From positions 1 through 21,198 of IMG/VR virus record IMGVR_UViG_3300004097_000073: a DNA stretch of 21,198 nucleotides; one strand, 5' to 3'. Source of the stretch: a virus. Of the stretch, positions 2 through 17,332 are shown piece by piece. The notes below the pieces were generated by a model. That model was not told where the DNA came from. It worked only from the letters and a program-made list of their open reading frames with translations, and did no database searches. Within the stretch, counting starts at the first letter, position 1. Each line of letters starts with the position of its first letter. Position numbers and translations under genes: made by a program.

Positions 2-2914
2 TTATTATTCAATACTGAGATAGATGTAATACAACCTGGTCAGCAAATACTAGATGCTTCCGAAGGTAACTACATATCATTTGATACATTAGCTTTATTA
101 GTAAATGACTCAGACAAAGTTTTGAACAATATCGATTTTTCAAAAACAAGCATAATAAAAGATGATAGTGAAATAGGAACAGGTTTATCTGGTACTAAAG
201 TTAATACTATAGGATCTAAATCTGTAGTGCAACTAATTTCTGCAGCTGCATTAAACTTAACTGTTGGTTCTGAAATAGTTGTGAGTAGTACTATAGATAA
301 TTCAAACTTTATTACTGGTACAGTTTTAAGACAAATTAAATCTATAAAAATAGATGATAGTGATATAGGTGGTTATAGTGCCGGAGATGAAGTTAGAATA
401 ATTCAAAATAATAGAGAGTTTAGTGTACCTATAGAAGGTTTACAAGCAGGCCCTGTTACTGGTGCAACTGTAAAAAATAGAGGAATAGATTTCGTTGTTG
501 GAGATGCAATAACTTTTACTTCTAAAAGTTCTGGTTCTGGTTCTGGTGGTAGTGCTATTATTACAGGAGTTGATAACGCAGGAAGAATAACTGAGATAGA
601 TAATAATAACGTTAGATTAGGACAACTAGGTACTGGTTTTCTTGCTAACGATTTTCAAAACGTAACAGTTCCTATCAATGAAGGTGGTAACTTTAACGAG
701 TTACCTGATGTAAAAATATTATCTCTAAACGGAACTAATACAGAGATAGTTCCTTTCTCTAATCAAATAGGTAAGATTAATAATTTTAGTTTCTTTAATA
801 AAGGTTACTTTGATTCAGATGGTGTAGATGTTATATTTCCTATGAATATAACTGTTCATGGTCAGTCAGATCTCACTGAAGGACAAACAGTAAGAATTCA
901 AAGATTTGAAGCTGACTCTGATGGGTTTTTAGATGATTCAGATAGTTTTAGAATATCTGTAAAGTTTACTAATAGAAAATTTACTACAAATGACTCTGAA
1001 GATATAAGAGTTAGAATACCTTATAAGTTTGATTTTGAAAATTATCAATGGGTAGATAGTGAATTTAAATTTAGTCATACTATTGGTGAAAATTTATCTA
1101 AGTCATTTAGAACTTTATTACAGAATCAAATAGGATCAGATAGTACTTACAGGTTTGATGTTATAGACAGTGATGATAAAGGTAACCGTGACTCTGAAGG
1201 TTTAAGAATATTTTTACAAGACCCTAGACTAAAAGGTCTAGATAATTTTCATTTTGACCAATTAACTAGTTATGAAGATAGTGATAAGTATAGACAGATA
1301 TCATTTAAACAACTTAAGAATACACCTTTTGTAGGTTTAAATGATAGTGTAGGTAGATTTCAAGATACTAATTTTATAGGAAGAATAACTTCTGTAACAG
1401 CTAATAAAAATGTTGTTAAGTTAACTCAAGCACCTAGAATTGTTTCTACTGATAGATTTCCTATTGATTCAGATTTATCAGTTATTGAAAATCAGAGATA
1501 TAAAGTTTTAAGATTAGCTCCTGTTGATACAGAAACTAACGAAACAGTAGTCAGTGAAACTTTTCCTTATAAAAATATTATTGCAAACCATCAAAGAGCA
1601 ACCGGTACATTATCATTTGAAGGTTCTGGAAAAACTAGTAAACAATTTTTAGATGATAAAGGTTTTAGTAATAGTTTATCAGGTGGAGTAATTAGAGATA
1701 ATTTATTCTTTGATAATTTTTCATACAGTTTAAAATCAAATTTATCTATTGCTCAGTGGAGAGAGTATGTTAAAGAAATTTTACACCCAGCTGGATTTAG
1801 ATTATTAGCTCAATTAAACATTAATTCAGCCGTTTCAGATACTTCAAATAAATCAAGTAGCGGGTACGATTCTGGTGAACAGCATAAAATGACTTTTGAT
1901 AGATCAATGGATCATAGTATAAACGCAACTACTTCAGCCAATTTACTTACTGCATCTTCAGTATTATATGCTTCTAACCCTTTTAACTTCTTTAATATAT
2001 CTACACCAGATGGTAGAAGTATATCAGCTGATAATTTATCATCAGTAGCTGAAGAAGGAGATGATGCAGAATTTGGAAATAGTTTTTGGGATTATGAACC
2101 ATTAGGTTATATTGATCCTAGATCTACTCAAACAAAAGATTCAGATGGATCTATCAATGTTCATGAAAAAACTTTTACTACAAAGTTATACCCTGATGTA
2201 AATTTAGATAGTGAACACTATCAAGATTATTTTAAAAATAAAACTTTGGATAGATTTCCAGATGAAAAAATAATTGAAATAGGTCAAACTACATTCCCAG
2301 CAGGAGAAAATAACTTTTTGCTTTTTGATTCAGAAAAAGTTAATAGAATTAAATTTATTAGATTTGACTACTTAAATGATAGTGATGGTAGATACTCTAA
2401 TGACAGTGATGATAAACATCTCTTTAAAGGTATTAATTATCAAAAATTAAAAGACAATGATTCTGATATTGTAAAACAAAATATTACTAAAAGAGATTTT
2501 GAGTATAATTTAGAAATGCAAAAAGATTTTATTAAAGCTAATAAACTAAATAACGAATTTAGTTTTAATATTGGTAGTCAGGAGTTATTTGATCTTGAAG
2601 CTTTTCAACAAAAATGGAATACTATTCATGTTGCAAGAGTAAATAAAGAAGGTTGGGAAATAGCAGGTTGGTCTTCTGCAATACAAAACGCTGCTGAAGG
2701 TCATAAAGTAAGACAGTTCTACTACCAATTAAATAAAATACCGCAGTATGCGAAAGAAAAGAATCCTGTTAAGAGAGATTTTTGGGTTAAACCAAACAAT
2801 ATCGTTTGGACCAATACTTATCTAGACCCATTAAATAAGACAGAATTAAATCTTTTAGAAGGTGATAGTGACTATAGAAGTCCAAGTCAGTATTATAAAA
2901 CGAGAACAGATTAA
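2..2914 (+). CDS. Large baseplate-region virion protein, gp7 position (5' partial)
   Basis: The reading frame is open from base 2 without a stop, so the true start lies left of the window; the TTG at 122 is only an internal codon. About 970 residues are visible. It lies directly before gp8, where T4 has gene 7, and is probably a baseplate wedge or other large virion protein. Recognisable features are a Gly/Ser-rich stretch near 530-560 with the beta-strand pattern common in phage structural proteins, and a block near 1729-1818 containing HPAGFRLLAQLNI, which resembles large structural proteins between gp6 and gp8 in marine T4-like phages. I see no direct similarity to T4 gp7 itself. It carries 13 Asp-Ser-Asp tripeptides plus several Asp-Ser-Glu. 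The stop overlaps the gp8 start as TAATG, implying translational coupling. Virion role is well supported; the gp7 equivalence is positional only. Confidence 0.75.
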   Translation, partial: LLFNTEIDVIQPGQQILDASEGNYISFDTLALLVNDSDKVLNNIDFSKTSIIKDDSEIGTGLSGTKVNTIGSKSVVQLISAAALNLTVGSEIVVSSTIDNSNFITGTVLRQIKSIKIDDSDIGGYSAGDEVRIIQNNREFSVPIEGLQAGPVTGATVKNRGIDFVVGDAITFTSKSSGSGSGGSAIITGVDNAGRITEIDNNNVRLGQLGTGFLANDFQNVTVPINEGGNFNELPDVKILSLNGTNTEIVPFSNQIGKINNFSFFNKGYFDSDGVDVIFPMNITVHGQSDLTEGQTVRIQRFEADSDGFLDDSDSFRISVKFTNRKFTTNDSEDIRVRIPYKFDFENYQWVDSEFKFSHTIGENLSKSFRTLLQNQIGSDSTYRFDVIDSDDKGNRDSEGLRIFLQDPRLKGLDNFHFDQLTSYEDSDKYRQISFKQLKNTPFVGLNDSVGRFQDTNFIGRITSVTANKNVVKLTQAPRIVSTDRFPIDSDLSVIENQRYKVLRLAPVDTETNETVVSETFPYKNIIANHQRATGTLSFEGSGKTSKQFLDDKGFSNSLSGGVIRDNLFFDNFSYSLKSNLSIAQWREYVKEILHPAGFRLLAQLNINSAVSDTSNKSSSGYDSGEQHKMTFDRSMDHSINATTSANLLTASSVLYASNPFNFFNISTPDGRSISADNLSSVAEEGDDAEFGNSFWDYEPLGYIDPRSTQTKDSDGSINVHEKTFTTKLYPDVNLDSEHYQDYFKNKTLDRFPDEKIIEIGQTTFPAGENNFLLFDSEKVNRIKFIRFDYLNDSDGRYSNDSDDKHLFKGINYQKLKDNDSDIVKQNITKRDFEYNLEMQKDFIKANKLNNEFSFNIGSQELFDLEAFQQKWNTIHVARVNKEGWEIAGWSSAIQNAAEGHKVRQFYYQLNKIPQYAKEKNPVKRDFWVKPNNIVWTNTYLDPLNKTELNLLEGDSDYRSPSQYYKTRTD

Positions 2915-4380
2915 TGACAGCAAAAATTACGACAGGATTAAATGTGTTAGTAGCAAAATCTTTTAGAGACAATCTAAGAGATACTTTAAATGATGATGAG
3001 TATTATGCGTTTATATGTTTTAATAATGATTCTGATTTACAAAGATATACTGATAGTGATGGAATAGATGATGACGCTGAATTTGTTGGCGGTGAATCAG
3101 CTGGTTTTAATAATGACGACCAAACTTATTATATGCAGCATGCAATAAGTGCTCATAAATTAGCTAAAGGTGGTGTATCAAGAGTTGTCCCAAGAGTAAA
3201 CTGGACTAGTGGTACAACTTATATAGCAGATAGTTACGCAATGGTTACGTCAATCATTCAAGGGGTTACAAAATTAAATGTTTACAAGGTACTTCATTAT
3301 CCGGGAAGCCCTTCAACTGCGTCACCTTCTGGAGACGCGAGCTTGCCGTTTACGACTGCTGATGGTTATCATTGGATTTATATGTACACTATTGATGCTT
3401 CTGATAGTCTAAGATTTGTTACTGAAAGTTATATTCCTATACCGGAAGCAGTATCTGTAGCTGAAGCTTTAACTTTAAATCCTGGTACAGCTAAATTTAA
3501 ACAATTTCAAGTTCAAAGAGATAGTAAAGTAGGTACAGTTTATGATGTTGCAATAAATGATTCAACTTTCGAAACTTCGTTAAGAACTATTTACGGTGAC
3601 TGGACTAGTATACCAACTACCATTACACTAACTTTACAGAATAGTACTTCTACAACACCAGTAACAACATTTGCAGGATCTATAACTAAGACTGATTCTG
3701 ATTTTACTTTTAATTTAATTACACCAGGTGAAGGTTACAGTAAAGGTGCTATTGCTAAGATAGGATCTAATACACCTAACGGTTTAACTGTAAATGTAGC
3801 TCCTGGATTAGGACACGGAACTAATGCTCCATTAGAATTAAATGCAAAAAATGTTATGGTGAGTGTAAGAAATACACCTGATGGAGACGTTACTAAATTT
3901 ACTAGAAATAATTTTAGACAAGTTAACTTATTGAGAAATCCTATTGATAGATCAACAGGTAAAGTAGCTAAGAATGATTTTTTAATTGCATGTAAAGCTT
4001 TTGTAGCAAGTGACAGCGATGGTGGTAATGCTACTTTTAACGTTGGTGATATTGTTGCTACAGGAACTGTATCTGGTAATAATTTTACTAGTACTACAAG
4101 TAAAGTAGGAAGAATAGTAGCTATAGATTCTAGTAAGAAAAAATATTATTATGTAAACTTAGGTAAAACAAAAGATAAAGATTCATTCATAGCTGGAGAC
4201 AACTTACAATTAGTAAATGCAACAGGCTCTTTGACTGGTAATCCTTTAACTATTTCTTCGGTAGCTAATAGAGAAGTACTGTTTAACTCAGGAGATATTA
4301 TTATATCTGATATAAGATCACAACAAATAACAAGAGCAATAGATCAAATTGAATCATTCAACTTTGTATTGACATTTTAG
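2914..4380 (+). CDS. 8: Baseplate wedge subunit gp8
   Basis: Product of 488 residues, against 334 in T4. Matches to T4 gp8 include VVPRVNW at residues 91-97 (T4 has VIPRRDW), GYHWIYMYTI at 151-160 (T4 GYVWEYLFEI), and the C-terminus, where RAIDQIESFNFVLTF corresponds to the T4 ending MAMDQTEEINILFTF. In T4, gp8 is a dimer in the baseplate wedge that contacts gp10, gp7 and gp6. The extra length lies mostly in residues about 240-320, a Gly-rich beta-type insertion with a GEGYSKGA motif. Four Asp-Ser-Asp triplets occur; two sit in the loop at residues 39-49, the second as DSDGIDDD, which looks like an acidic metal-binding loop. The start is fixed by the TAATG overlap with the gene before; only a weak ribosome-binding site is visible. 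Confidence 0.93.
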   Translation: MTAKITTGLNVLVAKSFRDNLRDTLNDDEYYAFICFNNDSDLQRYTDSDGIDDDAEFVGGESAGFNNDDQTYYMQHAISAHKLAKGGVSRVVPRVNWTSGTTYIADSYAMVTSIIQGVTKLNVYKVLHYPGSPSTASPSGDASLPFTTADGYHWIYMYTIDASDSLRFVTESYIPIPEAVSVAEALTLNPGTAKFKQFQVQRDSKVGTVYDVAINDSTFETSLRTIYGDWTSIPTTITLTLQNSTSTTPVTTFAGSITKTDSDFTFNLITPGEGYSKGAIAKIGSNTPNGLTVNVAPGLGHGTNAPLELNAKNVMVSVRNTPDGDVTKFTRNNFRQVNLLRNPIDRSTGKVAKNDFLIACKAFVASDSDGGNATFNVGDIVATGTVSGNNFTSTTSKVGRIVAIDSSKKKYYYVNLGKTKDKDSFIAGDNLQLVNATGSLTGNPLTISSVANREVLFNSGDIIISDIRSQQITRAIDQIESFNFVLTF

Positions 4381-4381
4381 G

Positions 4382-4389
4382 AATAAATA
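4382..4389 (+). promoter_or_regulatory. AATAAATA, T4-type late promoter-like element
   Basis: AATAAATA fits the NATAAATA form of late promoters in T4-like cyanophages (T4 itself uses TATAAATA). It sits in the 13-base gap between gp8 and the DUF4815 gene, four bases before the ATG, with no Shine-Dalgarno sequence. A T4-type start about six bases downstream would fall on the ATG, giving a leaderless message. The same octamer occurs by chance inside coding sequence (for example 9566-9573 and 14264-14271), so this is a tentative call. Confidence 0.35.
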
Positions 4390-4393
4390 GAAC

Positions 4394-7300
4394 ATGGCCA
4401 ATATAGATTTAAATATAAGTCCTTACTTTGATGACTTTGATGATAACAAAGACTTTTTAAGAGTTTTGTTTAGACCTGGTTTTCCAGTTCAAGCAAGAGA
4501 GTTATCACAAGCACAAACAATTTTACAGCAACAAATTACAAGAATGGGTAATTATCTGTTTAAAGATGGTTCCAGAGTAACAGGCGCTAAAATTGATTTT
4601 GACAATCAAAGTAAAAAGATGACTTTAACTGGCTCATCTAATATTTCATTTCCTTCTACAGGAGCTAGAATAGGAGCTATACTAGCAAATTTATCTACTT
4701 TAGAAGGTAAAGTAATTTCAAATGCATCAGGTTCTGTTAAAGCTGTAGTATTATCTAACCCTGTTGGAACAGTAGGTACTAATTCAGTAGGTTCTATCTA
4801 CTTAAAATATATTACTTCAACTACTTTTTCTACAGCTGGTGGATACATATATGCTACTGTTGCAGATAACCCTTCTTTAACAGCTGAGATATACAATACT
4901 TATTCAGCTATATCTGATTGTTCATTAGCTCATATTGAAGAAGGTGTATATTATATACAAGGTTTCTTTACTAGAGTAGCTAAACAAACAGTTGTAATTG
5001 ATGCTACAAATAAAAATCCTTCAGTTAAATTAGGATTTACAGTTAGTGAAAGTTTAATTACACCGAATAGTGATGCTACTTTATTTGATAATGCAAGAGG
5101 TAGTACTAATGAAGGAGCTCCTGGAGCTCATAGACTAAAACAGACTTTATCGTTTGGTATTAGATCATTAACTGCTAATAATGATCCTAACTTTTTTCAA
5201 GTTATGGTTATTGAAAACGGTGTTGCTCAACAACAAAGTACTAGAGGCGGCGTTAATAGCGGTATAGGAGATGTTTTAGCAACTAGAACATTTGAAGGTC
5301 ATGGTGACTTTTCAGTAGATCCTATTTCAATAAAGTATAGTAGATCTGATAGCGAAGATGCATTCTATGTTAACTCATCAAAGATTAAAGCTTATGTAAG
5401 AGGTTTTAGAATTGATCAAAGAGTTAATACTAATCTAAAAGTACCAAAACCGTTATCATTTAATAGAGTTAATAGTCAAACTATTGCAGTAACTGGTGTA
5501 CCTTATATTAATGTAAATAAAGAAGCAGATGTTGCAATGGGTGGTTTTACAAGCGCCACTAGTAACGATCCTCACTTACATGCTAATAGATTATTATTAC
5601 AAGATTCAGATAGTCGTACTTATGGTTATGCTAGAGCATACGCATTAGAAGATAGAAATCAACCTAAGTTGCATTTATACGATATAAAGTTTTTCCAAAA
5701 GTTAAGACTAGAAGGTCCTCCTAAAACTTTAAGTATAGGTAATGATGTTAAATCAACTAGAGATACTAAAGGTTATTATGTAGAGTTAGAAAGCACTGGA
5801 GCTGCAGATGTTGATCACGTAACTGATTCTGAAATATTAGTTATTGATTTTAACAAACCTTTTAGAAAAGGTCAAGTAATTAGATCTTCTGTTAATACTT
5901 CATTTAATTCAACTATTGCAGCTACAACTACTTATAGTTGGGCTAACATAACTAACATTAGAAGTAAAACAGGTAATTTTAAAGTAGAGAAAAAATCTTT
6001 AGCTAAAGTACAAAATGCTACTGGAAAATTATTTGGTGAAACTCAAAGTGCAGTTAAAACTGCTAGAGATGACGCTAAAGTATTCGATAATGATTTTGAA
6101 GTATTGTTTGCTAATCCACCTGTGATTGCTAGTACTTCTGGATCTACAGCTATAACACCCAATACAGCTGATACATTATTTTCTACTGCTAATGCTAATG
6201 GTGATTTTACTAGAACTAGAATTGATGATGGTAATGAAATAAGTAAAAAGCTTAAGTATGTTTACTTAAAAATTAGAAATGATAGAACAAGCTCAATTAA
6301 CTATGGTTGGTCTGCTCAAGATAGAGAATCAACTTTATTGTATTCTGATATCTATGATGTATATGGAATAAGTAAGAGTGATGCTAATAATACTTTCTCT
6401 CACTTTAAACAAATAAACATTACAATATCAGGCGGAGGTATTATACCTCAAGGTTCAATTGTAACTGGAACAACTTCTAAGTGTAGAGGTTTAGTTGCTT
6501 TATCTAATAGCGATAAAAATCAATCTGAATTAACAGGTTCTGCAGGTTACCATACTAGTAGATCAGGTACAGGTTCTACTGAAGTATTAGAAATTATTAA
6601 AGAAAACGCTACATCTAATTTTATTGCTAATGAGATATTATTAGTTACAACACCTAATGACTTAGATAGTTTTGTAAATCAAGTAACTTATGTTTCTGAT
6701 AGAACTGCAATAATAGTAGACACTCTTGAAAAATTCGGTACTGATATTATAGATAATTATTTCTTAGATGATGGTCAAAGAAATAATATATTAGAAACTG
6801 GAAGAATTATAAGAAAACCATTAATTAGAGCTCCTGAAGTAGGTGATTTAACTATATTCTTTTCTTATTTTGAAGATCAAGATACAACTAATAAGTTTTA
6901 TTACAATGCTGATAGTTATTCTTCAGCAGGCTTCTTCGCTACTGATCCTAGATTTTTCGAAAAGCCAGTTGACTTAGGTAATAAAGATAGAACAAAAGGT
7001 ATAAAGTTAAGAGACGTAATTGATTTTAGAAAGAAAGTAACTACAAATAATAATACTGGACAAAATACTTTCCATTTTAATCACAAGTCTATTACAAATA
7101 GACCTTTCTTATTACCTGGTATAGGTGAAACAGGAGCTACTCCTGCAGCTAAATTTACAATGACTTATGATGAGTATCTATCTAGATATGATATCTATTA
7201 TGTAGCTACTAAACCTTATTTTGGATTGAAAAGATTTAGCTCATTAGCAGCAAGAAATCCTCAAATACCAAAGTTTGATTCATCATTAGGTATGCCAATT

Positions 7301-9034: not shown

Positions 9035-9803
9035 AAAAATAAAGTTACTACATTACTTACTTATACTATTAGCATTAACTTTACCTTTTACTTTTAGTTT
9101 TCCTATTGATTTACTAGGTTTTTCAATATCATTATTTGTATACTTCTTAACTGGATGCATAGGAATAACTATGACTTTACATAGATGTCTTACACATCAA
9201 TCATTTGAGTTCAAGTACAAATGGATGGAAAGATTAGGTTCATACCTAGGAGCTATTCAAGGTACAGGTAGTCCTTTAACTTGGGTTATAGTTCACTGGG
9301 AGCATCATAAGCATGCTGATACGGAAAAAGATCCTCATTCACCAGATAAAGGATTAGTTTTTTTAAAGAATGATAAGTATGATTCGTTTAAGTTTAACTT
9401 ATTAGAGTATAGACATATTATAAAAGATAAGTTTCAAGTACTTTTACATCAATATTATTTTCTAATAATTTTAATTCATGCAGCTGTAATGTTTAGTATT
9501 TTTGGTATGTATGGATTATATTGGGGATTCATTTTACCATCTGTAATAGGAATCACTACAAGTATAATAAATAATACGTTCGCACACTCCGAACTTGGTT
9601 ATAAAAGATATAAACAAGATAACGATAGTTCAAATGTGTGGTGGGTAGCACTGTTAACATTCGGTGAAGGGTGGCATAATAATCATCATGCTGAACCCTG
9701 GGATTGGAATTTTAGCAGAGCATGGTATGAAATAGATATAACTGGTTCTATGATAAAATTTTTATTATCATCTAAGTTAGCAATACAAGGGGAGAAATGG
9801 TAA
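8997..9803 (+). CDS. Fatty-acid desaturase (DesC / delta-9 type), phage-encoded
   Basis: Product of 268 residues of the membrane di-iron fatty-acid desaturase family, which inserts a double bond into acyl chains. All three histidine boxes are intact: HRCLTH (H62, H67), HWEHH (H100, H103, H104) and HNNHH (H227, H230, H231). The segments KDPHSPDKG and WWVALLTFGEGWHNNHH follow cyanobacterial and bacterial DesC closely. Hydrophobic segments at about 17-32, 40-60 and 150-190 fit an inner-membrane enzyme. Electrons would come from host ferredoxin or a similar donor. The length is close to the usual 270-300 residues, so the gene looks complete and functional. It overlaps the upstream structural gene by 38 bases and ends directly before the next ATG, so it is co-translated with virion genes, an unusual place for a metabolic gene. 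It likely remodels host membrane lipids; the exact substrate and double-bond position are not determined. Confidence 0.93.
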   Translation: MLDRLNVFSPTGRKIKLLHYLLILLALTLPFTFSFPIDLLGFSISLFVYFLTGCIGITMTLHRCLTHQSFEFKYKWMERLGSYLGAIQGTGSPLTWVIVHWEHHKHADTEKDPHSPDKGLVFLKNDKYDSFKFNLLEYRHIIKDKFQVLLHQYYFLIILIHAAVMFSIFGMYGLYWGFILPSVIGITTSIINNTFAHSELGYKRYKQDNDSSNVWWVALLTFGEGWHNNHHAEPWDWNFSRAWYEIDITGSMIKFLLSSKLAIQGEKW

Positions 9804-11657
9804 ATGGCAGTTAAAGGCGCAATAGCACAAACGTTCACGTTACCAGCTATCATAAAAAAATTAATTAGTGTTGATGGTGACGGTAGACCAGTTGATACTT
9901 CTGGTGGTGAGGATTACGAAAACGATGTTAAGATAAAAGAAGGAGCTTTTGTCACTGCTATTGATTTGTTTTTTGACGTAGTAGATTTATCCTCAAACCA
10001 AAATCAAGTTAGAGTTGAAATTAGAAATACAGTACAAGGTAGACCAGGACAAATAGTAGTTGGATACGCTTCCAAATTTTTATCTGATTCAGATGGTACC
10101 GGTTCAGGTAGAGCAGTAGCATCGACACCAACTAATTTTAGATTTAATTCACCTGTTAAGTTGATTTCTGCTCAGGAATATTGTATAGTAGTAAGAACCC
10201 AATCTTCTCTTACAAGTTTATGGACAGCTGAAATAGGTAAGCCAGACTTGACTTCTGGATTAGGTGGATTAATATCTTCGCCGCCTAGTATAGGAGGTTC
10301 AGGTGGTTCGTTCTTTACATCAGAAAATGGTGGAGTTTATATACCGGACCCTAATAAAGATTTAAAGTTTAAATTATATAGAGCTAGTTTTAATACTGGA
10401 GTAGCTACAGCACAGTTAAGATCTAAGTTAAGTAAACTAGCAGTTAATATTGGTACTGTGAATAACGGCACACCAATAAGAACTTTTAAGCATTCACCAT
10501 ATATTTTAATAAAGCATCCTAATCATGGAATGTATGGATCAGGACAAAAAGTCGTAGTATCAGGAGTTGAGGGACCAAACGGAGCATCTGAAATAGCAGG
10601 TATTCCGGTTACTGATATTAATACGCAAGCTGACGCCGCATCAAGTTCTTTTGTAGATACACATGATGTATTGTATGCTACACAAGATACTTATTTTATA
10701 AAAGTAGCTTCTAATGCAAGAGAAACTTTAGATGCAGGTGGTTATAATATGAAAGTGAGTTCTAACTTACAGTACGATTATCTATACACTAATCTTAATC
10801 CTATAAACAATCTCTTTACTAAAGTGGATGCTAAGATTAAAACTACAACTGGTAGTACTATTGATAACGTTATATCAAGTCAACTACTAGGTTTAGATAC
10901 TTCAGCTGAAAGTTATCAAGCTGTAGGTAGTATAGATGAAGCTTATGCATATGTTGAAACAGATAAAGTAACAACTTTTACTAATCCTAAATCAATTTTA
11001 TCTACTGTTAATTCTACTAATAGATCATTTGAAATGCAACTAGAACTTAACACAGCTGATGAAAGATACTCACCTGTAATACCAGTTGAATCTCCATCAC
11101 AAGGGGTTGTAAATAAAATTAAGTTACTAAGAAATAGAGCTGGAATGCAGCCTGATGATTCAGATCTACAGAATAAGTATCCAATTTTTGAATCAAAAAG
11201 AGCTAATGACTCTGACTTTTTAGAAGAAGGAGATTCTGACAATGCAAATATACAAGCTAAGTTAGCTTCTTATATTGCGTCACTTACAGCAGCTAAACAA
11301 GATCATGCAGACTACATTACTAAGATTACAGAATTAGCTACACCTGCTGATACTTTAATAGTTAAATTTTTAGCTGATATGAATCCTACTAATGAAATTG
11401 AAATTGCATTTAAAGTGAAACGTATAGGTGATACTGCAGATATAGATGCTCAAGATTGGGAAGATTTTAAACTTAATACATTTATAAGTGAAAAAAATTA
11501 CGGTGCGTTTAATAGTGCTGAAGACTTTAAAGAATATTCAGCAGAACATGCAGTAGGAGAAGATTTTCAAGAGTTTAGAGTTAGAGTTAGAATGAAAACT
11601 AAAAACGAAGCATATGTGCCTAGACTTAAAAATTTAAGGATATTAGCAGTTGCATAA
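9804..11657 (+). CDS. Virion structural protein; likely detached C-terminal half of the DUF4815-type protein
   Basis: Product of 617 residues. The start GAIAQTFTLP, then GAFVTAIDLFF (48-57), EYCIVV (125-130) and LWTAEIGKP (139-147), matches the domain that normally follows the DUF4815 part within one polypeptide of marine T4-like phages (typically DPLAQTF..., GVF(I/V)TSIDLFF). A middle block with HPNHGMYGSGQKVVVSGVE and the ending VPRLKNLRILAVA also match the C-terminal half of that family. The ATG immediately follows the desaturase stop, with GGGGAGA upstream as ribosome-binding site. Four Asp-Ser-Asp triplets are present, two in the short span NDSDFLEEGDSDN. The simplest reading is gene fission by insertion of a module containing the desaturase; the two halves probably still assemble together in the tail or baseplate. 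The virion role is firm, the fission is inference. Confidence 0.82.
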   Translation: MAVKGAIAQTFTLPAIIKKLISVDGDGRPVDTSGGEDYENDVKIKEGAFVTAIDLFFDVVDLSSNQNQVRVEIRNTVQGRPGQIVVGYASKFLSDSDGTGSGRAVASTPTNFRFNSPVKLISAQEYCIVVRTQSSLTSLWTAEIGKPDLTSGLGGLISSPPSIGGSGGSFFTSENGGVYIPDPNKDLKFKLYRASFNTGVATAQLRSKLSKLAVNIGTVNNGTPIRTFKHSPYILIKHPNHGMYGSGQKVVVSGVEGPNGASEIAGIPVTDINTQADAASSSFVDTHDVLYATQDTYFIKVASNARETLDAGGYNMKVSSNLQYDYLYTNLNPINNLFTKVDAKIKTTTGSTIDNVISSQLLGLDTSAESYQAVGSIDEAYAYVETDKVTTFTNPKSILSTVNSTNRSFEMQLELNTADERYSPVIPVESPSQGVVNKIKLLRNRAGMQPDDSDLQNKYPIFESKRANDSDFLEEGDSDNANIQAKLASYIASLTAAKQDHADYITKITELATPADTLIVKFLADMNPTNEIEIAFKVKRIGDTADIDAQDWEDFKLNTFISEKNYGAFNSAEDFKEYSAEHAVGEDFQEFRVRVRMKTKNEAYVPRLKNLRILAVA

Positions 11658-11835
11658 AAATATACAAGGTCATCCGTATCTTGAAAAGAGAGGCGGTGCT
11701 ATTATTAATACTGATCCGTCTCTTAAAGCAACTATTAATAAAAGACGTAAAGAACAAAAAAGATTGAACGATTTAGAATATAGATTAAATAGAATAGAAA
11801 ACTTGTTAGAAAGGATACTAGAGAAAAATGGCTAA
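11650..11835 (+). CDS. Small conserved coiled-coil protein, TTG start
   Basis: Product of 61 residues. The N-terminal part (GHPYLEKR, then GAIINTDPS) resembles a small protein of the baseplate/neck cluster in marine T4-like phages, often written GHS.L.RD..TGAI.NTN. Residues about 27-60 (KATINKRRKEQKRLNDLEYRL and onward) form a strongly charged helix with heptad-like Leu/Ile spacing, likely a coiled coil. The start is TTG at 11650, overlapping the upstream stop by eight bases; AAGGA at 11636-11640 lies at a good distance and no ATG is available in frame. Its exact function is unknown; it may be a small structural or assembly protein. Confidence 0.75.
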   Translation: MHKNIQGHPYLEKRGGAIINTDPSLKATINKRRKEQKRLNDLEYRLNRIENLLERILEKNG

Positions 11836-12559
11836 TACACTCTTATCAGATTATCTAAGTAAAAATAGTTCTGTTAATAAGCCATCGCTTGTTGATCCAG
11901 CTAATAGTAATTCTGTTATACCATTAACTGATTATACTGTAAATACCAATACAAGAGTTAACACAGGTACGTCTCCCAACTCTAATGATGGTGATCCTCT
12001 AAGAACAGCTTTTCAAAAACTTAATAACTTTATTGAAGCTTCATATAGAACTAATGTTAACGTTAATGCAGATATAACATCTTTATCATCTGCTGGTACA
12101 TTTTTAGGTGCAAAAACTTATACAGAAATTACTGCTTTGAGCCCTAATAGTAATGATACAGTTATTTTATCAGAGAGTATTTTAACACTTAATCCTGATG
12201 CTACTCCAGTATACACTAATAAAATAACAAGTGCAAGCTTTAATTTAACAAATGGTGTTTATAGTATATCTGCAGGTTCATTACTAAAATATAACGGTAG
12301 TAAGTTTGCATTAGAGCACAGTAATAGTGCTAAAAATATTACATTTGATTTTGATAGTGCACTATCAAGACTATCAACTGGTACTGCTTCTTCAGAGAAA
12401 ACTGGAGCTGAACAATTAGAAATGTATGCAGAATATTTAAAATTAAATCAGGGAGCGGCTAATAGCGTAAGAATACAAGCTCAAACTGTTGAAGATGCAA
12501 TAGTAGAACTAACAGTTAGACAAAGTACTTCTGGAAGAGACGCAGGGTATTATGCGTAA
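11828..12559 (+). CDS. Putative virion protein with a gp9/gp10-like N-terminal motif
   Basis: Product of 243 residues, not recognised over its full length. Residues 44-73 read NTGTSPNSNDGDPLRTAFQKLNNFIEASY in short blocks, the motif seen at the N-termini of T4 gp9 and gp10 and of many fibre-type proteins (IxxGTxxxDGTGDxLRxxxxKxNxNFxxxY). Here it follows a 43-residue leader. The rest is Ser/Thr/Asn-rich and beta-like. The ATG lies within the end of the upstream gene (eight-base overlap), with AAAGGA upstream, and the stop overlaps the gp14 start as TAATG. T4 has gene 13 immediately before 14, but this protein shows no resemblance to gp13. No Asp-Ser-Asp is present. Probably a baseplate, neck or fibre-associated protein. 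Confidence 0.6.
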   Translation: MANTLLSDYLSKNSSVNKPSLVDPANSNSVIPLTDYTVNTNTRVNTGTSPNSNDGDPLRTAFQKLNNFIEASYRTNVNVNADITSLSSAGTFLGAKTYTEITALSPNSNDTVILSESILTLNPDATPVYTNKITSASFNLTNGVYSISAGSLLKYNGSKFALEHSNSAKNITFDFDSALSRLSTGTASSEKTGAEQLEMYAEYLKLNQGAANSVRIQAQTVEDAIVELTVRQSTSGRDAGYYA

Positions 12560-13596
12560 TGGCTATAGTAAACAATTATCTAGGATTTACAATTGCAACT
12601 ACTACAGAGTTGACAAAAACAGATAATGATTCTGATTTTGGCGCTAGTCAAAATAGAAATATAAGAACTATAAACGAAAATTACAACTACAAAGCAGCTA
12701 TTCAAAATACTTTTATTGATGGTTATATTAACCAATTCGGTTCATCAGCAAACTTTTCAACAAATGAACAAAGACTAGTACAAAATTTAGTAAGAGAGTC
12801 AATTAATACTAATGGTATAACTGTTAGATATATGCCTAGACATTCTAAGTATACTGATTCAGTATTCAACGAAAGACCTGAATCTAAGTTTCATGCAGGT
12901 TACCAAATAGATATGATGTTATTAGCAGCAGCCGGCTTCGAAGGTGAAGGCGATGTAATGACTACTTACGGAGTTGAATTTAGAGAAGAAGTTATTATGA
13001 CTGTTGCTATTAATAACTTTAATAATAAACATAAAGATTATGACAGTGATCTATCTGATAGTGACTCAGCGTTTTATAATAGACAAAGACCTTTAGAGGG
13101 TGACTTAGTTGTTATTCCTTTTGGTAGATCAGCTCAGAATAAAAATCAATACGTTCCTAAAATATTTGAAATAACTCGAGTAACTACATTCCATGATGGT
13201 GCTTTCTTCCAAGTAGGTGATAACTATCAATATAAATTAAGATGTAAACTATTCGAACTTTCTGGAGAGGATCTTGGATTTTCACCAACTGCTATTACAT
13301 ACAATACAGTTACTGGTAAAGAACAGACTACTACTAATGAAAAGATACAAAGAGCTTCAGCAGGTGTTAATTTTATAGACAGTGATACTAAAGCACTTAA
13401 TATAGTAAGAGATTCAGATTCAATAACTGATTCTTATGGTAGGAATAGAGAGATAGAACAGAGAGCTCAGCAAAGAGTTATCTATGATGACGATGGTAAT
13501 GCAACCGAGAAGAGTGATGTTATTGTAGAAGACTATGGTAAATCAGCTCATCATAGTCCAGGTATAATTAATAATTTAGATTTAGATGATATATGA
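12559..13596 (+). CDS. 14: Neck protein gp14
   Basis: Product of 345 residues, against 256 in T4. Residues 77-110 (LVRESINTNGITVRYMPR, then FNERPESKF) align with T4 LVAESIQMRGVECYYVPR and onward. Also matching are GYQIDMMLLAAAGFEGEGD (114-132), REEVIMTVAINNF (142-154), RPLEGDLVVIPF (177-188) and GAFFQVGDNYQYKLRCKLFELSGEDL (214-239) in part. T4 gp14 forms part of the neck closing DNA-filled heads before tail joining. Extra length is in the N-terminus, around 160-175 and in the C-terminal tail. Five Asp-Ser-Asp triplets lie exactly there: residue 24, a pair in YDSDLSDSDS (161-170) inserted between two conserved blocks, and two after residue 270. The stop overlaps the gp15 start by four bases (ATGA). 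Confidence 0.93.
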   Translation: MAIVNNYLGFTIATTTELTKTDNDSDFGASQNRNIRTINENYNYKAAIQNTFIDGYINQFGSSANFSTNEQRLVQNLVRESINTNGITVRYMPRHSKYTDSVFNERPESKFHAGYQIDMMLLAAAGFEGEGDVMTTYGVEFREEVIMTVAINNFNNKHKDYDSDLSDSDSAFYNRQRPLEGDLVVIPFGRSAQNKNQYVPKIFEITRVTTFHDGAFFQVGDNYQYKLRCKLFELSGEDLGFSPTAITYNTVTGKEQTTTNEKIQRASAGVNFIDSDTKALNIVRDSDSITDSYGRNREIEQRAQQRVIYDDDGNATEKSDVIVEDYGKSAHHSPGIINNLDLDDI

Positions 13597-14585
13597 TAGG
13601 TACACATTTTTACAATGAGACTATTAAAACTTCAGTAGCAGTATTCGGTAGTCTTTTTAACAACTTAGTAATTAAAAGAAGAGATGGTAAACTCTTACCA
13701 GTACCTATTAGCTATGGTCCTCGTCAAAAATGGCTAGATGCTCAAAAACAATTTCAGCCTTCTGAAGAAATGTTTGAAAAGTTATTACCTAGAATGTCAT
13801 ATGAAATAGTAGCTATGAATTATGATCAATCTAGAAAATTAACTAACAGACAAACTATGTTAAGAGAACCTGATGGTTTAACAGACCCTAGACAAAGAAT
13901 AAATGTACCTACTCCTTACAATTTAGATTTTACTTTATACTGTGCTACAAAAACTCTTAATGATGGTTGGCAAATAATCGAACAAATACTACCATTCTTT
14001 ACTCCTGCTTATACAGTAAAGGTAAGACATTTTCCTCAAGATGCAAGTGCATTGACTCCTACACCAACTAATTCATATGATCAGACTTTTACGTTGTTAT
14101 CTACTACTTGGGCTGATGATTATACAGGTGAAATAGGTGATAGAAGAGTTATAGAATGGACAATGGAATTCCAAACAAAGATATGGTTACACGGACCAGT
14201 AGCAGCAACATCAGTAATTGTTGATTCTAGAGCTATTGTCTCAGTACCACCAACTGGAGTGCCAATAAATAAGATGTCTCGAGCTTCTACTCAAGCAGGT
14301 ACTGAAGTTGGTTACGCAGTTCTATCAGGTGATAGCAGAGGCTATGATTCTGACTCAAAAGGACCTTATGTATTAGACTCAGATGGAGTAACGTTTAGAC
14401 TTTATGATTCAGATCTTGATTTTGATTCTGATGGTGCTACAAAGAAGCTTAGAAAAAGAAGAAATGTAGTAAACGATTCAGATGTTAGATATAGTAATGA
14501 TTCTGATAGAAGTCCGACAATATTAAACTTAAGTGATAGCGATGGTAACATCATAAAGATCGTTAGAAACTTGCCAGAGAATTAG
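13593..14585 (+). CDS. 15: Tail terminator / sheath stabiliser gp15 with acidic C-terminal extension
   Basis: Product of 330 residues, against 272 in T4. HFYNETIKTSVAVFGSLF at 5-22 corresponds to T4 YFYNSSFRRYATLMGDLF. NLVIKRRDGKLLPVPISY (24-41), WQIIEQILPFFTPAYT (126-141; T4 FQIVEQILPYFQPHFN) and DRRVIEWTMEF (183-193) also match. In T4 gp15 is a hexamer capping the tail tube and sheath and joining the tail to the neck. The conserved core ends near residue 225. The remaining 100 residues are an extension with seven Asp-Ser-Asp triplets at residues 252, 262, 272, 278, 295, 303 and 315, interrupted by one basic patch KKLRKRR (284-290). It is translationally coupled to gp14 by the ATGA overlap. 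Confidence 0.93.
   Translation: MIGTHFYNETIKTSVAVFGSLFNNLVIKRRDGKLLPVPISYGPRQKWLDAQKQFQPSEEMFEKLLPRMSYEIVAMNYDQSRKLTNRQTMLREPDGLTDPRQRINVPTPYNLDFTLYCATKTLNDGWQIIEQILPFFTPAYTVKVRHFPQDASALTPTPTNSYDQTFTLLSTTWADDYTGEIGDRRVIEWTMEFQTKIWLHGPVAATSVIVDSRAIVSVPPTGVPINKMSRASTQAGTEVGYAVLSGDSRGYDSDSKGPYVLDSDGVTFRLYDSDLDFDSDGATKKLRKRRNVVNDSDVRYSNDSDRSPTILNLSDSDGNIIKIVRNLPEN
14346..14543 (+). repeat. Cluster of seven Asp-Ser-Asp units in the gp15 C-terminus
   Basis: Seven DSD tripeptides occur in 66 residues, spaced 10, 10, 6, 17, 8 and 12 residues apart, often as DSDG or flanked by an aromatic or aliphatic residue. The serine is written TCA, TCT, AGT or AGC and the aspartates GAT or GAC, so the repeat exists at the protein level and not as a DNA repeat. 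Confidence 0.85.
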
Positions 14586-14593
14586 AATAAATA
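14586..14593 (+). promoter_or_regulatory. AATAAATA, T4-type late promoter-like element
   Basis: This is the same octamer as at 4382, in the 12-base gap after gp15 and again exactly four bases before an ATG, with no Shine-Dalgarno sequence. The identical arrangement at both short gaps argues mildly against chance. The octamer does also occur inside coding sequence in this AT-rich window. Confidence 0.35.
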
Positions 14594-14597
14594 AGAT

Positions 14598-16022
14598 ATG
14601 TCAAGTAAAGATTTAATAAATTTAGGAACAGCCCCAGATTCGGGGACAGGAGATACAGCTAGAAAAGGCGGTATGAAGATTAATAATCTTTTCGCTGACA
14701 TCTATGCTAACTACGGTGACAACCCAATTGGTAATGATCCTGATGGAAAGAACTATGGATATAGAAAAGCCTATTCAGAAGGTGAATATAAAGTAGGTGA
14801 GTTACATCCAGCTACTAAATTTAAGAGAGTTTCATTTAAGCAAGATTCAGATGGTGCTACTGAAAGAGCAGATGGTTCATATGATTTTTTCCATAATGGT
14901 GAAGGTTATTTTGTAAAAGATTCAGACGGTGTAATTTATTCACCTTCAAGTTCAACTATACCATCTATATACTTAAGTAAAGAATGGTATTTCATGTCAA
15001 GAGGAGAGCAAATAACTCCTGACTTAACTCAATTAGATTCAGATTATTTTCATATAGTATTACCACTAGCTAAAGCTGGTGATAGAGTAATCATAAGAGA
15101 TAGTTTAGGTCATATATCTGAATCAACTCCTATGTCATTATGGGCTACACCTTATGAATGGAATAGTGTATCTCAAATAAATGAATGGATTACTAATACA
15201 CCTGAAGCAGGACTAGCTGCTGACTCTGATAGCTTCCCATCTGTTAACCATAGTAGAATAACAGTTCCAGGAGCTGCATCAGGTACTAATGCTTCATTAA
15301 GACAAACACAGATTACTAATTCAGATATAGTTGGAATTACCGGTTATGAAAAAATACCATTTGCAGGTACAACAGGTTATAGAAGTAATATTCCAGTATC
15401 ACCAATTACGTTTAATACAAAACATATTGAAGTTGAGTGTACATATCTAGGTGCAAATACTGGATGGGTGTATAAACAAACTACTATTACTGACTCTGGT
15501 GATACTAATATAAAACAGACTCACGATAAGTTTCATTCAAGAGATTGGTTTCAATGGAATAAAGCTGATTTAAATGAATCAGATTCAGTTATATTACAAA
15601 ACCAATACTTGTTACCTATAATGTCATCTAACGGTCAAAGAATAACTCTTACAGATGGCGCTCCTGTATTCAAAGTATTCCAAGAAATAGGTTATGATTC
15701 AGATGAATTTGGAAATAAATTGCAAGATTTTTTTAGTGGTTATGTAACTAACAACAATGAAAATATTACAGGTGATGGTGATGATAACGTTGTTACTGTC
15801 AATGTAGGAGACTCAGATACTATTATGGCTAGAAAGTATAGAAGAGCTCAAATAGCGGCTGGTAACGCAACATACCCTGTTGGTGTTAGTCAAAGCATAG
15901 GCAATTGGTACAATGAAATAAATATACCATCAATAGTAACTAAAGATGGAATATTGATATTAATTTCTAACTACCCATTTTCAGGTAGGATAGAATTATT
16001 TGTTAAAGGAAGTGTAGGTTAA
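14598..16022 (+). CDS. gp9/gp10-like baseplate wedge / tail-fibre connector protein
   Basis: Product of 474 residues. The N-terminus (residues 4-41: KDLINLGTAPDSGTGD, then KGGMKINNLFADIYANYGD) aligns with T4 gp9 (KLIDTGEIGNASTGD, then GGNKINSDFNAIYNAFGD) and with the similar start of gp10. After that, HIVLPLAKAGDRVIIRD (151-167) resembles the beta domain of gp10 (INLPKGTVNDYNKVIRARD). In T4, gp9 is the socket for long tail fibres and gp10 forms the baseplate pins. At 474 residues it lies between gp9 (288) and gp10 (602), so I do not choose one symbol. Six Asp-Ser-Asp triplets are present, including QDSDG and KDSDG near residues 82 and 108. The stop overlaps the next start as TAATG. Confidence 0.82.
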   Translation: MSSKDLINLGTAPDSGTGDTARKGGMKINNLFADIYANYGDNPIGNDPDGKNYGYRKAYSEGEYKVGELHPATKFKRVSFKQDSDGATERADGSYDFFHNGEGYFVKDSDGVIYSPSSSTIPSIYLSKEWYFMSRGEQITPDLTQLDSDYFHIVLPLAKAGDRVIIRDSLGHISESTPMSLWATPYEWNSVSQINEWITNTPEAGLAADSDSFPSVNHSRITVPGAASGTNASLRQTQITNSDIVGITGYEKIPFAGTTGYRSNIPVSPITFNTKHIEVECTYLGANTGWVYKQTTITDSGDTNIKQTHDKFHSRDWFQWNKADLNESDSVILQNQYLLPIMSSNGQRITLTDGAPVFKVFQEIGYDSDEFGNKLQDFFSGYVTNNNENITGDGDDNVVTVNVGDSDTIMARKYRRAQIAAGNATYPVGVSQSIGNWYNEINIPSIVTKDGILILISNYPFSGRIELFVKGSVG

Positions 16023-17332
16023 TGGCTAACCCTAATGTAGATTCAGATTTTAGTAGAGGTTTTTACCAACATAGAAGGACTTATAGTGCTACTGTGAACG
16101 GTGACGGAGCTCCTCTAGCTACTGATTTGCTAGAAGGTGAAATAGCAATAAACCTTTCTACAAGTAAATTATATACAAAAAAGAATACTTTTCAAGATAT
16201 AGACTATACAGATAAAATAGAAACGTTTCAGCAAAATGCGGGTATTTTATTAGATTTTTCTCCTATAAGTTCTGCTTACATAGGACAAAAAGTGGGTATT
16301 AATTTTAATAATGGTACTAAGTCTTTTATTTTTATAGACAGTGATGATACTACAGTGGGTAATTGGGTTAATGATTTTGTAACTCACGTTGCTGCTAACC
16401 ACCCATCTACTAGTGTTATCAACGGTACAGCATTAGGAGAGTTTGGTAAAACTAGTCAAGTATTAGTTTTTACAGATGACTCAGATCAAGCATTAAGTTA
16501 TGATTTAGATTCTGATTTTGTCAGATACATAGATCATACAAGAACAACAGTATCAAGATTGATACAATCATCAGATTCAGACAACGATATTTTCGCAAAA
16601 CAAGGTACAATAACACCAACAAGTTTTATAAAAACATATAAGACGGCAGGTTCAGTTAAATCAATAACCTCAACGTCAGTACCATTACGTAAGTTCGTTT
16701 CTGGTTCAGAGAATTCATACTTCGTTACTAATTTAACATTAGCGACAGGTGGAATAAACGAAGGGACAGATCAATTTAGAGTTTCTATAGATCAAAATAA
16801 TCCCTCTATTCTAGATTTAACAGCTAGAATACCTACAACATCCAACACCCCTCCTGCAGTTGCAGCAACCTCGTCTAAGCCCGGGTTAAATGGTGATTTG
16901 TGGATACAGCCTCCAGGTGCTGAAAATGATTCAGAGCCTAGTCATTTATATTGGCTAGATATGTCAGTAGTGAACTCTACTGCCGCTCAAGCTAAAGCTA
17001 GAGCCATGTCAGATTCAGATAGAATCTCTCAAGGAGTTGTCTTAATTGATTCAGATGGATCTGGCGGATCTACCTTTGCTGAATGGAGACAAGTTACTTC
17101 TGGTAGTTTTCTTATAACTCAAAACTTTGGTACTGTATCTGAAACAAAAACTTTCGATTCTGATTCAATTCATACTATGAAAGGAACACTTGACGTTAGT
17201 AATGGTGTACTAAAAGCTGGTTCTCGATTTGAGTTCCAAAACGATATGTTTACTAAAACTAAACGATTAAGAATAAAAAATGTAAGTGGAAGCACTGTAT
17301 TTTCTATGGTAGGATTTGACTCAGACGGGTAA
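16022..17332 (+). CDS. Tail-fibre-like virion protein
   Basis: Product of 436 residues. The N-terminus carries LATDLLEGEIAINLSTSKLYTK (residues 32-53) in near-canonical form, the EGEIAxNxxxxKLYxK motif common to the start of phage tail-fibre and distal tail proteins. A second typical fibre segment, NGDLWIQPPG, lies at residues 293-302. The remainder is Thr/Ser-rich and beta-like, with no recognised receptor-binding or lyase domain. It has the highest count after the first gene, nine Asp-Ser-Asp triplets, and ends exactly in GFDSDG. It follows the gp9/gp10-like gene with a TAATG overlap, consistent with a fibre or baseplate-attached adhesin. The specific fibre identity is not determined. Confidence 0.7.
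   Translation: MANPNVDSDFSRGFYQHRRTYSATVNGDGAPLATDLLEGEIAINLSTSKLYTKKNTFQDIDYTDKIETFQQNAGILLDFSPISSAYIGQKVGINFNNGTKSFIFIDSDDTTVGNWVNDFVTHVAANHPSTSVINGTALGEFGKTSQVLVFTDDSDQALSYDLDSDFVRYIDHTRTTVSRLIQSSDSDNDIFAKQGTITPTSFIKTYKTAGSVKSITSTSVPLRKFVSGSENSYFVTNLTLATGGINEGTDQFRVSIDQNNPSILDLTARIPTTSNTPPAVAATSSKPGLNGDLWIQPPGAENDSEPSHLYWLDMSVVNSTAAQAKARAMSDSDRISQGVVLIDSDGSGGSTFAEWRQVTSGSFLITQNFGTVSETKTFDSDSIHTMKGTLDVSNGVLKAGSRFEFQNDMFTKTKRLRIKNVSGSTVFSMVGFDSDG

Follow-up and report, generated by a model that had tools for sequence, protein, structure and literature searches.

The tripeptide Asp-Ser-Asp (DSD) is itself under selection in the virion proteins of IMGVR_UViG_3300004097_000073, of which a stretch of 21,198 nt (the window) was analysed, and the best explanation that we can tentatively offer, judging from sequence, is that the serine of D-S-x may be a phage-encoded O-glycosylation sequon on outer-tail proteins in one clade of marine T4-like phages.

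DSD in the virion proteins

An exact count gives 49 DSD in eight virion ORFs, the first site lying at nucleotide 107 and the last at 17318, which agrees with the estimate of about 49 in the initial annotation and with its split among these ORFs (13, 4, 1, 4, 5, 7, 6 and 9 in order from 2-2914 to 16022-17332). About two had been expected by chance in that annotation; residue shuffling gives a slightly higher value of 3.10 (sd 1.76, maximum 14 in 2000 shuffles) and dipeptide-preserving shuffling gives 15.9 (maximum 29 in 300 shuffles), and the excess holds against both controls. The codons vary, as had been claimed: the sites are encoded by thirteen distinct 9-mers, among which GATTCAGAT is used 16 times, and serine is encoded by both TCN (36) and AGY (13) codons. 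Considering that six-frame translation of 107-17332 yields 49 DSD in the plus frames, as many as the genes themselves contain, with two more on the minus strand, DSD is a protein-level signal. Selection on the peptide, proposed at the outset, is well supported by codon variety, flanks, ortholog conservation, shuffles and the six-frame count. DSE is also elevated in the window (10 vs 2.0 expected); DTD (0 vs 3.2) and ESD (1 vs 2.0) are not above chance. The ORFs concerned, and two neighbouring ones lacking DSD, are as follows.

2..2914, + strand: large baseplate-wedge-like (gp7-like) ORF, 5' end beyond the window; 13 DSD (107 to 2864), 6 DSE
2914..4380, + strand: gp8 baseplate wedge (PF09215, E 2.3e-10; phrog_438); 4 DSD (3028, 3052, 3694, 4012)
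4394..9034, + strand: DUF4815/phrog_358 virion protein, N-terminal part (PF16075, E 3.3e-50); 1 DSD (5603)
9804..11657, + strand: C-terminal partner of the DUF4815 protein (phrog_358 positions 1764-2055); 4 DSD (10086, 11157, 11208, 11232)
11828..12559, + strand: tail-region protein; no DSD in the window, 1-5 DSD in 12/15 clade homologs
12559..13596, + strand: gp14 neck protein (PF11649, E 3.6e-16); 5 DSD (12628, 13042, 13057, 13378, 13411)
13593..14585, + strand: gp15 tail sheath stabiliser (PF16724, residues 5-209); 7 DSD (14346-14543, residues 252-315)
14598..16022, + strand: gp9/10-like baseplate-fibre connector (PF07880, E 3.8e-7); 6 DSD (14844-15818)
16022..17332, + strand: fibre-like virion protein, with nothing at E 0.001 in Pfam and PHROG scans; 9 DSD (16040-17326)
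17377..18309, + strand: tail-region protein; no DSD, which is also absent in 9/10 clade homologs

The clustering of gp8, DUF4815, gp14, gp15 and gp9/10-like genes identifies a T4-like (Kyanoviridae-related) tail module. A longer copy of the gp7-like ORF (G036:10477-13758, 1093 aa) weakly matches P-SSM2 gp7 (E 5e-5) and also a Melnitz hypothetical protein (3e-15). The set of DSD-bearing virion proteins is specific: the carriers are outer-tail proteins (gp7-like, gp8, gp13-gp15, gp18, gp9/10-like and fibres), whereas the mapped tube, hub, portal and capsid proteins have 0-1 DSD each, including the major capsid protein, which is exposed as well.

Conservation and placement of the sites

All 38 gp15 loci of at least 54% identity are DSD-rich (6.6-23x expectation), and the 10 loci of at most 41% identity have 0-2 DSD each. 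At 4058 ungapped aligned orthologous DSD sites, DSD is kept in 59% and DS[DE] in 69%, compared with 21% DSD retention expected from background rates; many sites turn over. The third Asp is often swapped for Glu, and Asp1 and Ser are rarely altered singly: DS is kept with a changed third position at 464 sites, 84% of them Glu (background 17%), while only Ser is changed at 78 of the 4058 sites (15 to Thr) and only Asp1 at 68 (24 to Glu, background 17%). The single site of the DUF4815 protein is DS[DE] in 10/10 aligned clade homologs (three others are gapped), and the residue-452 site of the 9804-11657 ORF is conserved in 15/15 homologs. ESD in the DSD-bearing ORFs of G002 occurs once against 2.9 expected. 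Non-virion ORFs contain 24 DSD (30.0 expected), 12 DSE (27.8) and 16 ESD (27.8); DS[DE] avoidance in these ORFs was promising at first and failed against controls.

The initial annotation placed the triplets in expanded loops or tails. An alignment check upheld this for 9 of the 21 sites alignable to outside phages, which fall in mostly-gap columns (4.0 expected), but not for the other 12, whose columns are mostly aligned in those phages; by protein, the gap-column test gives p of 0.005 for gp8, 0.034 for gp15, 0.11 for gp14, 0.12 for the 9804-11657 ORF and 1.0 for DUF4815. All seven DSD of gp15 lie C-terminal to its Pfam match. In a predicted gp14 structure (moderate, pLDDT 59 with 56 sequences; poor, pLDDT 38 with 10), DSD residues 162 and 167 lie at the ends where helix 151-164 and helix 167-173 face each other, and DSD residues 24, 274 and 285 fall in low-confidence parts.

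Flanks and spacing were examined at 531 non-redundant DSD sites, with enrichments reported at z > 2.5. Asp is depleted at -1 (13 vs 46 expected) and also avoided at -3 and +3, and Pro is disfavoured after DSD; mean flank preferences are weighted by the coiled-coil repeats of fibres. The triplets are spaced apart, with gaps of 3-11 residues observed 30 times against 74 expected and gaps of 12-29 residues 205 times against 112.

Glycosyltransferase-like genes and D-S-x in other lineages

A cassette next to the tail genes encodes a GT-A-like (glycosyltransferase, GT) protein and a methyltransferase-like protein, often with a second GT-A-like protein; the DLD motifs of the GT-A-like candidates were identified by eye. 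Hits at E <= 2e-13 to the GT profile A11 occur in 14 of the 19 records of the DSD clade and in G045, a sister lineage; none of 15 other gp14 records of at least 20 kb is matched. Cassette proteins of G002 and G045 are 46-49% identical, although gp14 on the G045 contig (L380) is 34% identical to that of the window over residues 69-239. The phage of the window itself has diverged cassette copies (22% and 25% identity; profile E 9.6e-19 and 1.0e-16). Pfam and PHROG scans gave no match for the A11 protein of G002; its G045 homolog matches phrog_1962 ('glycosyltransferase') only at 0.005, and the second cassette protein at 3e-9 and 8.7e-6. Linkage of this GT gene to virion genes and partial co-occurrence are observed, the GT activity being putative.

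Loci of other lineages were retrieved by searching with the cassette GT alone, using no structural gene. D-S-[ADEGNS] reaches at least twice the expectation in 12 of the 16 GT-found loci outside the clade and in 2 of 15 GT-less gp14 loci (Mann-Whitney p 3e-4, for loci that are not independent and represent few independent lineages); the GT loci span 11-21 kb and the comparison loci 6-13 kb, and therefore the two sets are not matched. Without L440 and L441 (the latter is G045, previously known), 10/14 GT loci are D-S-x-rich. The top tripeptide is DSA in 10/16 GT-found loci, and in G045 DSD (46 observed, 7.8 expected), DSA (39, 7.5) and DSN (19, 6.3) are all raised, with Thr forms at 3 vs 7.4 (DTD) and 3 vs 7.3 (DTA). 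The D-T-x ratio is below 1 in 16/16 GT loci and 13/15 GT-less loci, and thus D-T-x is no discriminator. L430, L432, L433 and L435-L439 resemble a single lineage.

The association has exceptions in both directions. A GT is present without D-S-x excess in L425, L429 and L434, and in Mosig, where the methyltransferase-like protein has a homolog (2.2e-23) and the GT matches weakly, the D-S-x ratio is only 1.11. Conversely, L330 and L365 have a D-S-x excess and no GT match (L335 is at 1.80 and L336 at 1.70). Mild DSD excess occurs without a known GT, since, among 66 gp14 loci from outside the clade, 9 carry at least 6 DSD at >3x expectation and the remaining 57 sum to 93 DSD against 55 expected. 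C48C1 has a moderate DSD excess (34 vs 13.0), and none was found in the examined parts of Melnitz, Mosig, P-SSM2 and AG-345-E02. The cassette tends to accompany D-S-x richness, in a few phage lineages and with differing third residues.

Several other enzyme candidates were rejected. The sugar cassette A1/A2/A3 (a GT8-like protein plus a pair of proteins that resemble each other and have weak GT-type matches, neighboured by KdsA-like, GT25 and other sugar genes) is insufficient as the modifier because its relatives occur in many phage records, Mosig included, in which DSD is not in excess over the parts examined. For A6/A7, which occurs in the clade and is 390-415 aa long, structural comparison gave no useful match. 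A T4 alpha-glucosyltransferase homolog (G002/G004) belongs to a family that modifies DNA and had no counterpart in the remaining sets that were searched.

Possible meanings of the motif

Among the three meanings offered by the initial annotation, serine modification is favoured, considering that Ser and Asp1 seldom change alone, that neither DTD nor ESD exceeds chance, and that other lineages have D-S-A/N/S in equivalent proteins beside homologous GT-like genes; calcium-binding loops and bulk surface charge are disfavoured by the non-acidic flanks and the absent DxDxDG pattern. Metal binding by acidic loops, calcium or other, is very improbable: calcium is abundant in seawater, DSDG is present and SDG is raised in the window (15 vs 3.2), but DxD with other middle residues is not comparably elevated, no significant Asp or Gly enrichment was seen at later DxDxDG positions of the 531 sites, and DSA sites carry one acid only. 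Tuning of charge or solubility, or a fibre architecture in which DSD caps the start of coiled-coil repeats, is quite unlikely; DSD does open coiled-coil-like repeats in long fibres (e.g., LDSDSIKIQ in an L027 protein with 36 DSD), yet it equally fills gp8, gp14, gp15 and the sheath, and flanking Asp is avoided. A serine might instead be phosphorylated at DSD/DSE by an acidophilic kinase of phage or host, which we consider unlikely. The surroundings of Ser in D-S-[D/E] are acidic, and a protein with a RIO-like kinase fold is encoded by the phage of the window (G001:13938-14480, PF01163, E 8.1e-6), but of the 30 sequence sets compared, several being fragmentary, only G001 has this gene at full length (L005 has a 38-residue match), and DSA, DSN and DSS of sister lineages have no acid at +1. 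Acidophilic (CK2-like) kinases usually want an acid at Ser+3, where the 531 sites show no enrichment. Asp beta-hydroxylation by phage Asp/Asn hydroxylases, which are frequent in the region (PF05118 proteins near tail genes, G002:131144-131833; 2/27 in the region of G001), is highly improbable, as Mosig has three such genes annotated in the same part without DSD excess and the specificity covers the middle Ser, not Asp alone.

It is also rather unlikely that a host factor modifies or binds the motif, with D-S-x phages sharing such hosts and the GT cassette changing the host surface. The cassette is absent or weak in some carriers, and in the main text of PMC7029224, where 'DSD' does not appear, pelagimyophage GT genes in a variable region beside tail fibres are taken as modifiers of host O-chains; those phages and cyanomyophages (Kyanoviridae) have the same T4-like virion genes with GT neighbours. 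Against this, a search with the GT alone retrieved D-S-x-rich loci, the third residue tracks phage lineage, and two pattern-limited scans of bacterial contigs gave no gp14/gp15 relative.

The O-glycosylation reading has partial counterparts in known systems. Staphylococcal SdgA/SdgB likewise use Ser in DSD as acceptor (here a candidate acceptor); SdgB GlcNAcylates a bare DSD peptide (PMC8561734) and DSD serines of SDR domains are mostly modifiable (PMC3794999). SDR adhesins have long SD repeats, whereas the phages have isolated, spaced triplets across many virion proteins and no long uninterrupted SD repeats, gaps of <12 residues being rarer than chance. The Sdg enzymes are GT-B proteins with a DUF1975 insert, unlike the GT-A-like phage candidate, which has no detected relation to them, and Pfam gave no such GT-B match among the subset of phage proteins scanned. 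PMC12871550 describes a Bacteroidota D-(S/T)-x sequon with Asp nearly always at -1 (Glu is rejected in B. fragilis and rare elsewhere), a species-dependent, mostly hydrophobic third residue, acceptance of Thr, and non-cytoplasmic targets. The phages resemble it in Asp at -1 with Glu rarely accepted and in the variable third residue (D-S-[D/E] vs D-S-[A/D/S/G/N]), but their third residues are not mainly hydrophobic and D-T-x shows no rise. Bacteroidota modify non-cytoplasmic proteins, whereas phage tail proteins are synthesised in the cytoplasm.

If D-S-x is an O-glycosylation sequon, the cassette glycosyltransferase would add a sugar to Ser of D-S-[D/E], or of D-S-[A/D/S/G/N] in other lineages, on freshly synthesised tail proteins within the cytoplasm of the host; the glycan would be completed by the methyltransferase-like enzyme together with further phage sugar genes, giving a coat on sheath, neck, baseplate and fibres. 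We speculate that such a coat might shield from proteases or decoys, confer stability or aid adsorption. Recurrent D-S-x beside GT-like genes suggests that tails may be sugar-decorated in these viruses, and no report of DSD in phage virions appeared among the open-licence PMC papers listed. It is possible, though still more tentative, that several marine T4-like lineages own a cytoplasmic, sequon-specific O-glycosylation system, with a tail-linked GT-A/methyltransferase cassette and a lineage-specific third residue (D/E, A, N or S), building a dense, evolvable outer-tail glycan coat of dozens of sequons. If so, acceptor sites of virion modification would be readable directly from sequence, GT-sequon pairing would become predictable and checkable in metagenomes, and some marine-phage glycosyltransferases would make phage glycoproteins rather than act as the host-surface modifiers that PMC7029224 takes them to be.

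DSD in the tail proteins of the window

The window comes from an uncultured phage (a 21,198-base record), and its T4-like tail genes are listed below.

gp8
DUF4815/phrog_358 protein (two ORFs)
gp14
gp15
gp9/10-like protein
fibre-like protein

The initial annotation had counted about 49 Asp-Ser-Asp (DSD) tripeptides by hand, and this tally was borne out, with 49 copies in eight window tail ORFs. This number exceeds the maxima of both null models, namely residue shuffling (3.10 expected, maximum 14 among 2000) and dipeptide-preserving shuffling (15.9 expected, maximum 29 among 300). DSD is the top over-represented tripeptide of the window (49 against 3.36 expected), the second by z-score being VRY (7 against 0.77). 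The plus-strand frames contain 49 copies in total, which equals the in-gene total, and the minus strand contains 2. Codon variety at these sites was likewise as previously described (13 nine-mers; Ser codons TCN 36 and AGY 13). A fatty-acid desaturase gene (PF00487, window 8997-9803) splits the two DUF4815/phrog_358 ORFs; this protein is a single ORF of about 1900-2090 aa in loci L008, L009, L011, L017, and L023, and two adjoining ORFs without a desaturase in L004. Seven radical SAM proteins, with four SPASM matches, are found among 27 proteins beside the tail genes (window 18897-21196 and G001:5426-17297).

Identity and gene order suggest that records G001 and G036 contain the greater part of the phage from which the window comes. 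In these two and in the clade record G002, DSD is carried by gp7-like, gp8, DUF4815, gp13, gp14, gp15, gp9/10-like, sheath gp18, and fibre proteins and by some ORFs without identity, with 0 or 1 copy detected in gp6, gp25, gp53, gp48/54-like, gp26-like, gp5-like, tube gp19, portal gp20, gp21, gp22, gp23, and gp3. Under the known T4 arrangement, the carriers are outer-tail proteins and the DSD-poor set inner or core proteins, with the capsid protein, exposed yet DSD-poor, as the exception. A gp14 model (pLDDT 59, 56 sequences), in which residues 162 and 167 lie where the ends of two helices face each other and the three remaining DSD sites fall in low-confidence parts, provides weak evidence of exposure.

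Motif shape and turnover in the DSD clade

Among the 17 ORFs of G002 carrying at least two DSD, the middle residue is strongly raised only for Ser (DSD 139 against 6.3 expected, DTD 3 against 5.4), and the flanking-acid variants differ (DSE 39 against 2.9, ESD 1 against 2.9). In 60 non-redundant proteins (109 before clustering; 40,324 aa) of the DSD clade, marine T4-like phages with DSD-rich tail proteins, 531 sites, heavily weighted by fibre repeats, show that Asp is rarer than expected right outside the triplet (13, 17, and 15 against 46 at positions -1, -3, and +3), that Pro seldom follows it (2 and 4 where 16.6 were expected), and that neighboring DSDs are kept apart (gaps of 3-11 residues, 30 against 74; 12-29 residues, 205 against 112). 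The spacing tendency was repeated for DS[DE] in 30 shorter, non-fibre-like proteins (gaps below 9, 8 against 20; 12-29, 60 against 35). Thus, from flank depletion and spacing, the unit is an isolated tripeptide and neither a DxDxDG loop nor a run of acidic residues. One fibre-like ORF of 1081 aa (L027:17339-20584) has 36 DSD, many inside coiled-coil-like repeats (LDSDSIKIQ).

A gp15 search returned 48 loci, 38 of which (54-100% identity) are all DSD-rich at 6.6 to 23 times expectation; the remaining 10 (30-41% identity) have 0-2 DSD each, and in two of them the 2 DSD amount to 3.4 and 4.3 times expectation. The gp14 search added 10 clade loci, all DSD-rich, and 66 loci outside the clade, of which nine have at least 6 DSD at more than 3 times expectation, while the 57 that remain have, pooled, 93 against 55 expected; therefore, a mild excess extends past the clade. 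No DSD excess was detected in the examined parts of phages Melnitz, Mosig, P-SSM2, and AG-345-E02, and C48C1 has 34 against 13.0 expected.

Across 1054 directed ortholog alignments (35-80% identity, not independent) covering 4588 DSD sites, of which 530 are gapped, DSD is retained at 59% of ungapped sites (21% predicted from background rates) and DS[DE] at 69%. When DS is kept, 390 of 464 position-3 changes are to Glu (84% against a background of 17%); the first Asp changed in 68 cases with the rest kept, 24 times to Glu, and Ser changed between two kept Asp in 78 cases, 15 times to Thr. Residue 285 of gp14 (16/16) and residue 315 of gp15 (16/17) are kept clade-wide, and other DSD sites are private to the window's phage. 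The earlier proposal that the triplets sit in expanded loops or tails holds in part, since 9 of 21 alignable sites are in columns mostly gapped in outside phages (4.0 expected) but the remaining 12 are not. In L025:10001-11683, gp15 has grown to 560 aa (9 DSD, 3 DSE), with an insertion preceding the conserved C-terminal DSDG segment. A clade gene of 390-415 aa (L393:1434-2606, G036:39434-40606) is present in five DSD-clade records (G036, G002, G004, G005, and G009); among 30 records searched, its relatives elsewhere (G020, G021, and Mosig) are weak.

A tail-adjacent cassette and D-S-x richness

Contig G045 (L380), reached via the gp14 search (34% identity over residues 69-239), has raised DSD (46/7.8 expected), DSA (39/7.5), DSN (19/6.3), DSS (21/10.6), and DSG (16/9.1) over its ORFs taken together, with DSE 2/4.0 and DTD 3/7.4; G042 is similar and weaker (DSD 14/4.2, DSA 11/3.4). 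Thus, the lineages have the D-S core in common and the third residue is lineage-dependent. G002 and G045 share the following tail-adjacent cassette, on the strand opposite to the tail genes.

GT-A-like protein, about 260 aa
methyltransferase-like protein, about 215 aa
second GT-A-like protein

These proteins are 46-49% identical between the two records, and the two GT-A-like proteins are paralogs (29% identity). The candidate glycosyltransferase gene of the cassette is at G002:128612-129394 and G045:20422-21177. The second matches the PHROG 'glycosyltransferase' phrog_1962 (3e-9 in G002, 8.7e-6 in G045); for the first, the G045 copy reaches no better than 0.005 and the G002 copy has no match. 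A Pfam search of the GT-A-like proteins gave no match, and their DLD motifs were read by eye, so that the putative glycosyltransferase assignment is thin. The Mosig homolog of the 215-aa protein is annotated as methyltransferase. Diverged cassette copies lie in the window's own phage within G001:17285-20425, about 9.6 kb past the window end.

The glycosyltransferase-like (GT) profile matched 14 of 19 DSD-clade records (the five without a match measure 19-47 kb), G045, none of 15 other gp14 records of at least 20 kb, and, weakly, 5 of 20 further records, including Mosig and C48C1. The methyltransferase-like gene was detected in 9 of 11 clade records (clade counts for both genes include several near-duplicates), G045, all 10 tested GT-found records, and Mosig (2.2e-23), and was absent from 19 other records searched. 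Another sugar cassette (A1/A2/A3, GT8-like plus two mutually similar proteins) was dropped as a sufficient modifier, because many phage records that show no DSD excess also have it. A T4 DNA alpha-glucosyltransferase homolog (PF11440, E 6.9e-29) is encoded at L037:8337-9665 (G002:65337-66665) and also in G004, near UDP-glucose dehydrogenase and thymidylate-synthase-family proteins; some clade members may carry glucosylated modified DNA. A protein read by eye as KdsA-like (Kdo-8-phosphate synthase) occurs at L051:11795-12536 (G001:68795-69538) and L037:4212-4988 (G002 copy, PF00793, E 4.6e-49), with relatives in G029, G020, G021, and G023.

With the GT alignment alone as query, 25 loci were returned, 9 from the DSD clade and 16 others. 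Twelve of these 16 are rich in D-S-[ADEGNS] (at least twice expectation; L443 reaches 1.86, and L425, L429, and L434 about 1.0), against 2 of 15 GT-less gp14 loci (L330 3.81, L365 2.34; L335 1.80, L336 1.70), a difference (Mann-Whitney p 3e-4) between sets of unequal length (11-21 kb and 6-13 kb). L441 is G045 itself and L440 is numerically the same; leaving both out, 10 of 14 are rich. Eight GT loci look like one lineage, so that roughly three or four lineages provide the support. DSA ranks first among tripeptides in 10 of the 16 non-clade loci. All 16 of these GT loci fall below expectation for D-T-x, as do 13 of 15 GT-less loci, so that D-T-x does not discriminate between them. In L430, L432, L433, and L438, sites are located in gp8, DUF4815, and adjoining tail-region ORFs, with hardly any in cassette genes.

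Candidate meanings of D-S-x

Calcium-binding loops and surface charge, both raised by the initial annotation, are disfavored because a DSA site carries one acid only. The main rival is phosphorylation of the DSD serine. The window's phage encodes, amid radical SAM genes next to its tail module, a RIO/ABC1-like kinase-fold protein (L048:13938-14480, in G001; PF01163, E 8.1e-6); however, among 30 sequence sets searched, several of which are fragments, the full-length gene was found in one genome only. As for precedents, a bare DSD can serve as a glycosyltransferase acceptor for SdgB (PMC8561734), and a Bacteroidota system follows a D-S/T-x logic in which the third residue depends on the species (PMC12871550); neither system is a family match. 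Considering the Asp-Ser core, the lineage-specific third residue, spacing, site turnover, the outer-tail distribution, and the linked GT-like genes, the reading that fits best is that D-S-x is a putative enzyme acceptor sequon.
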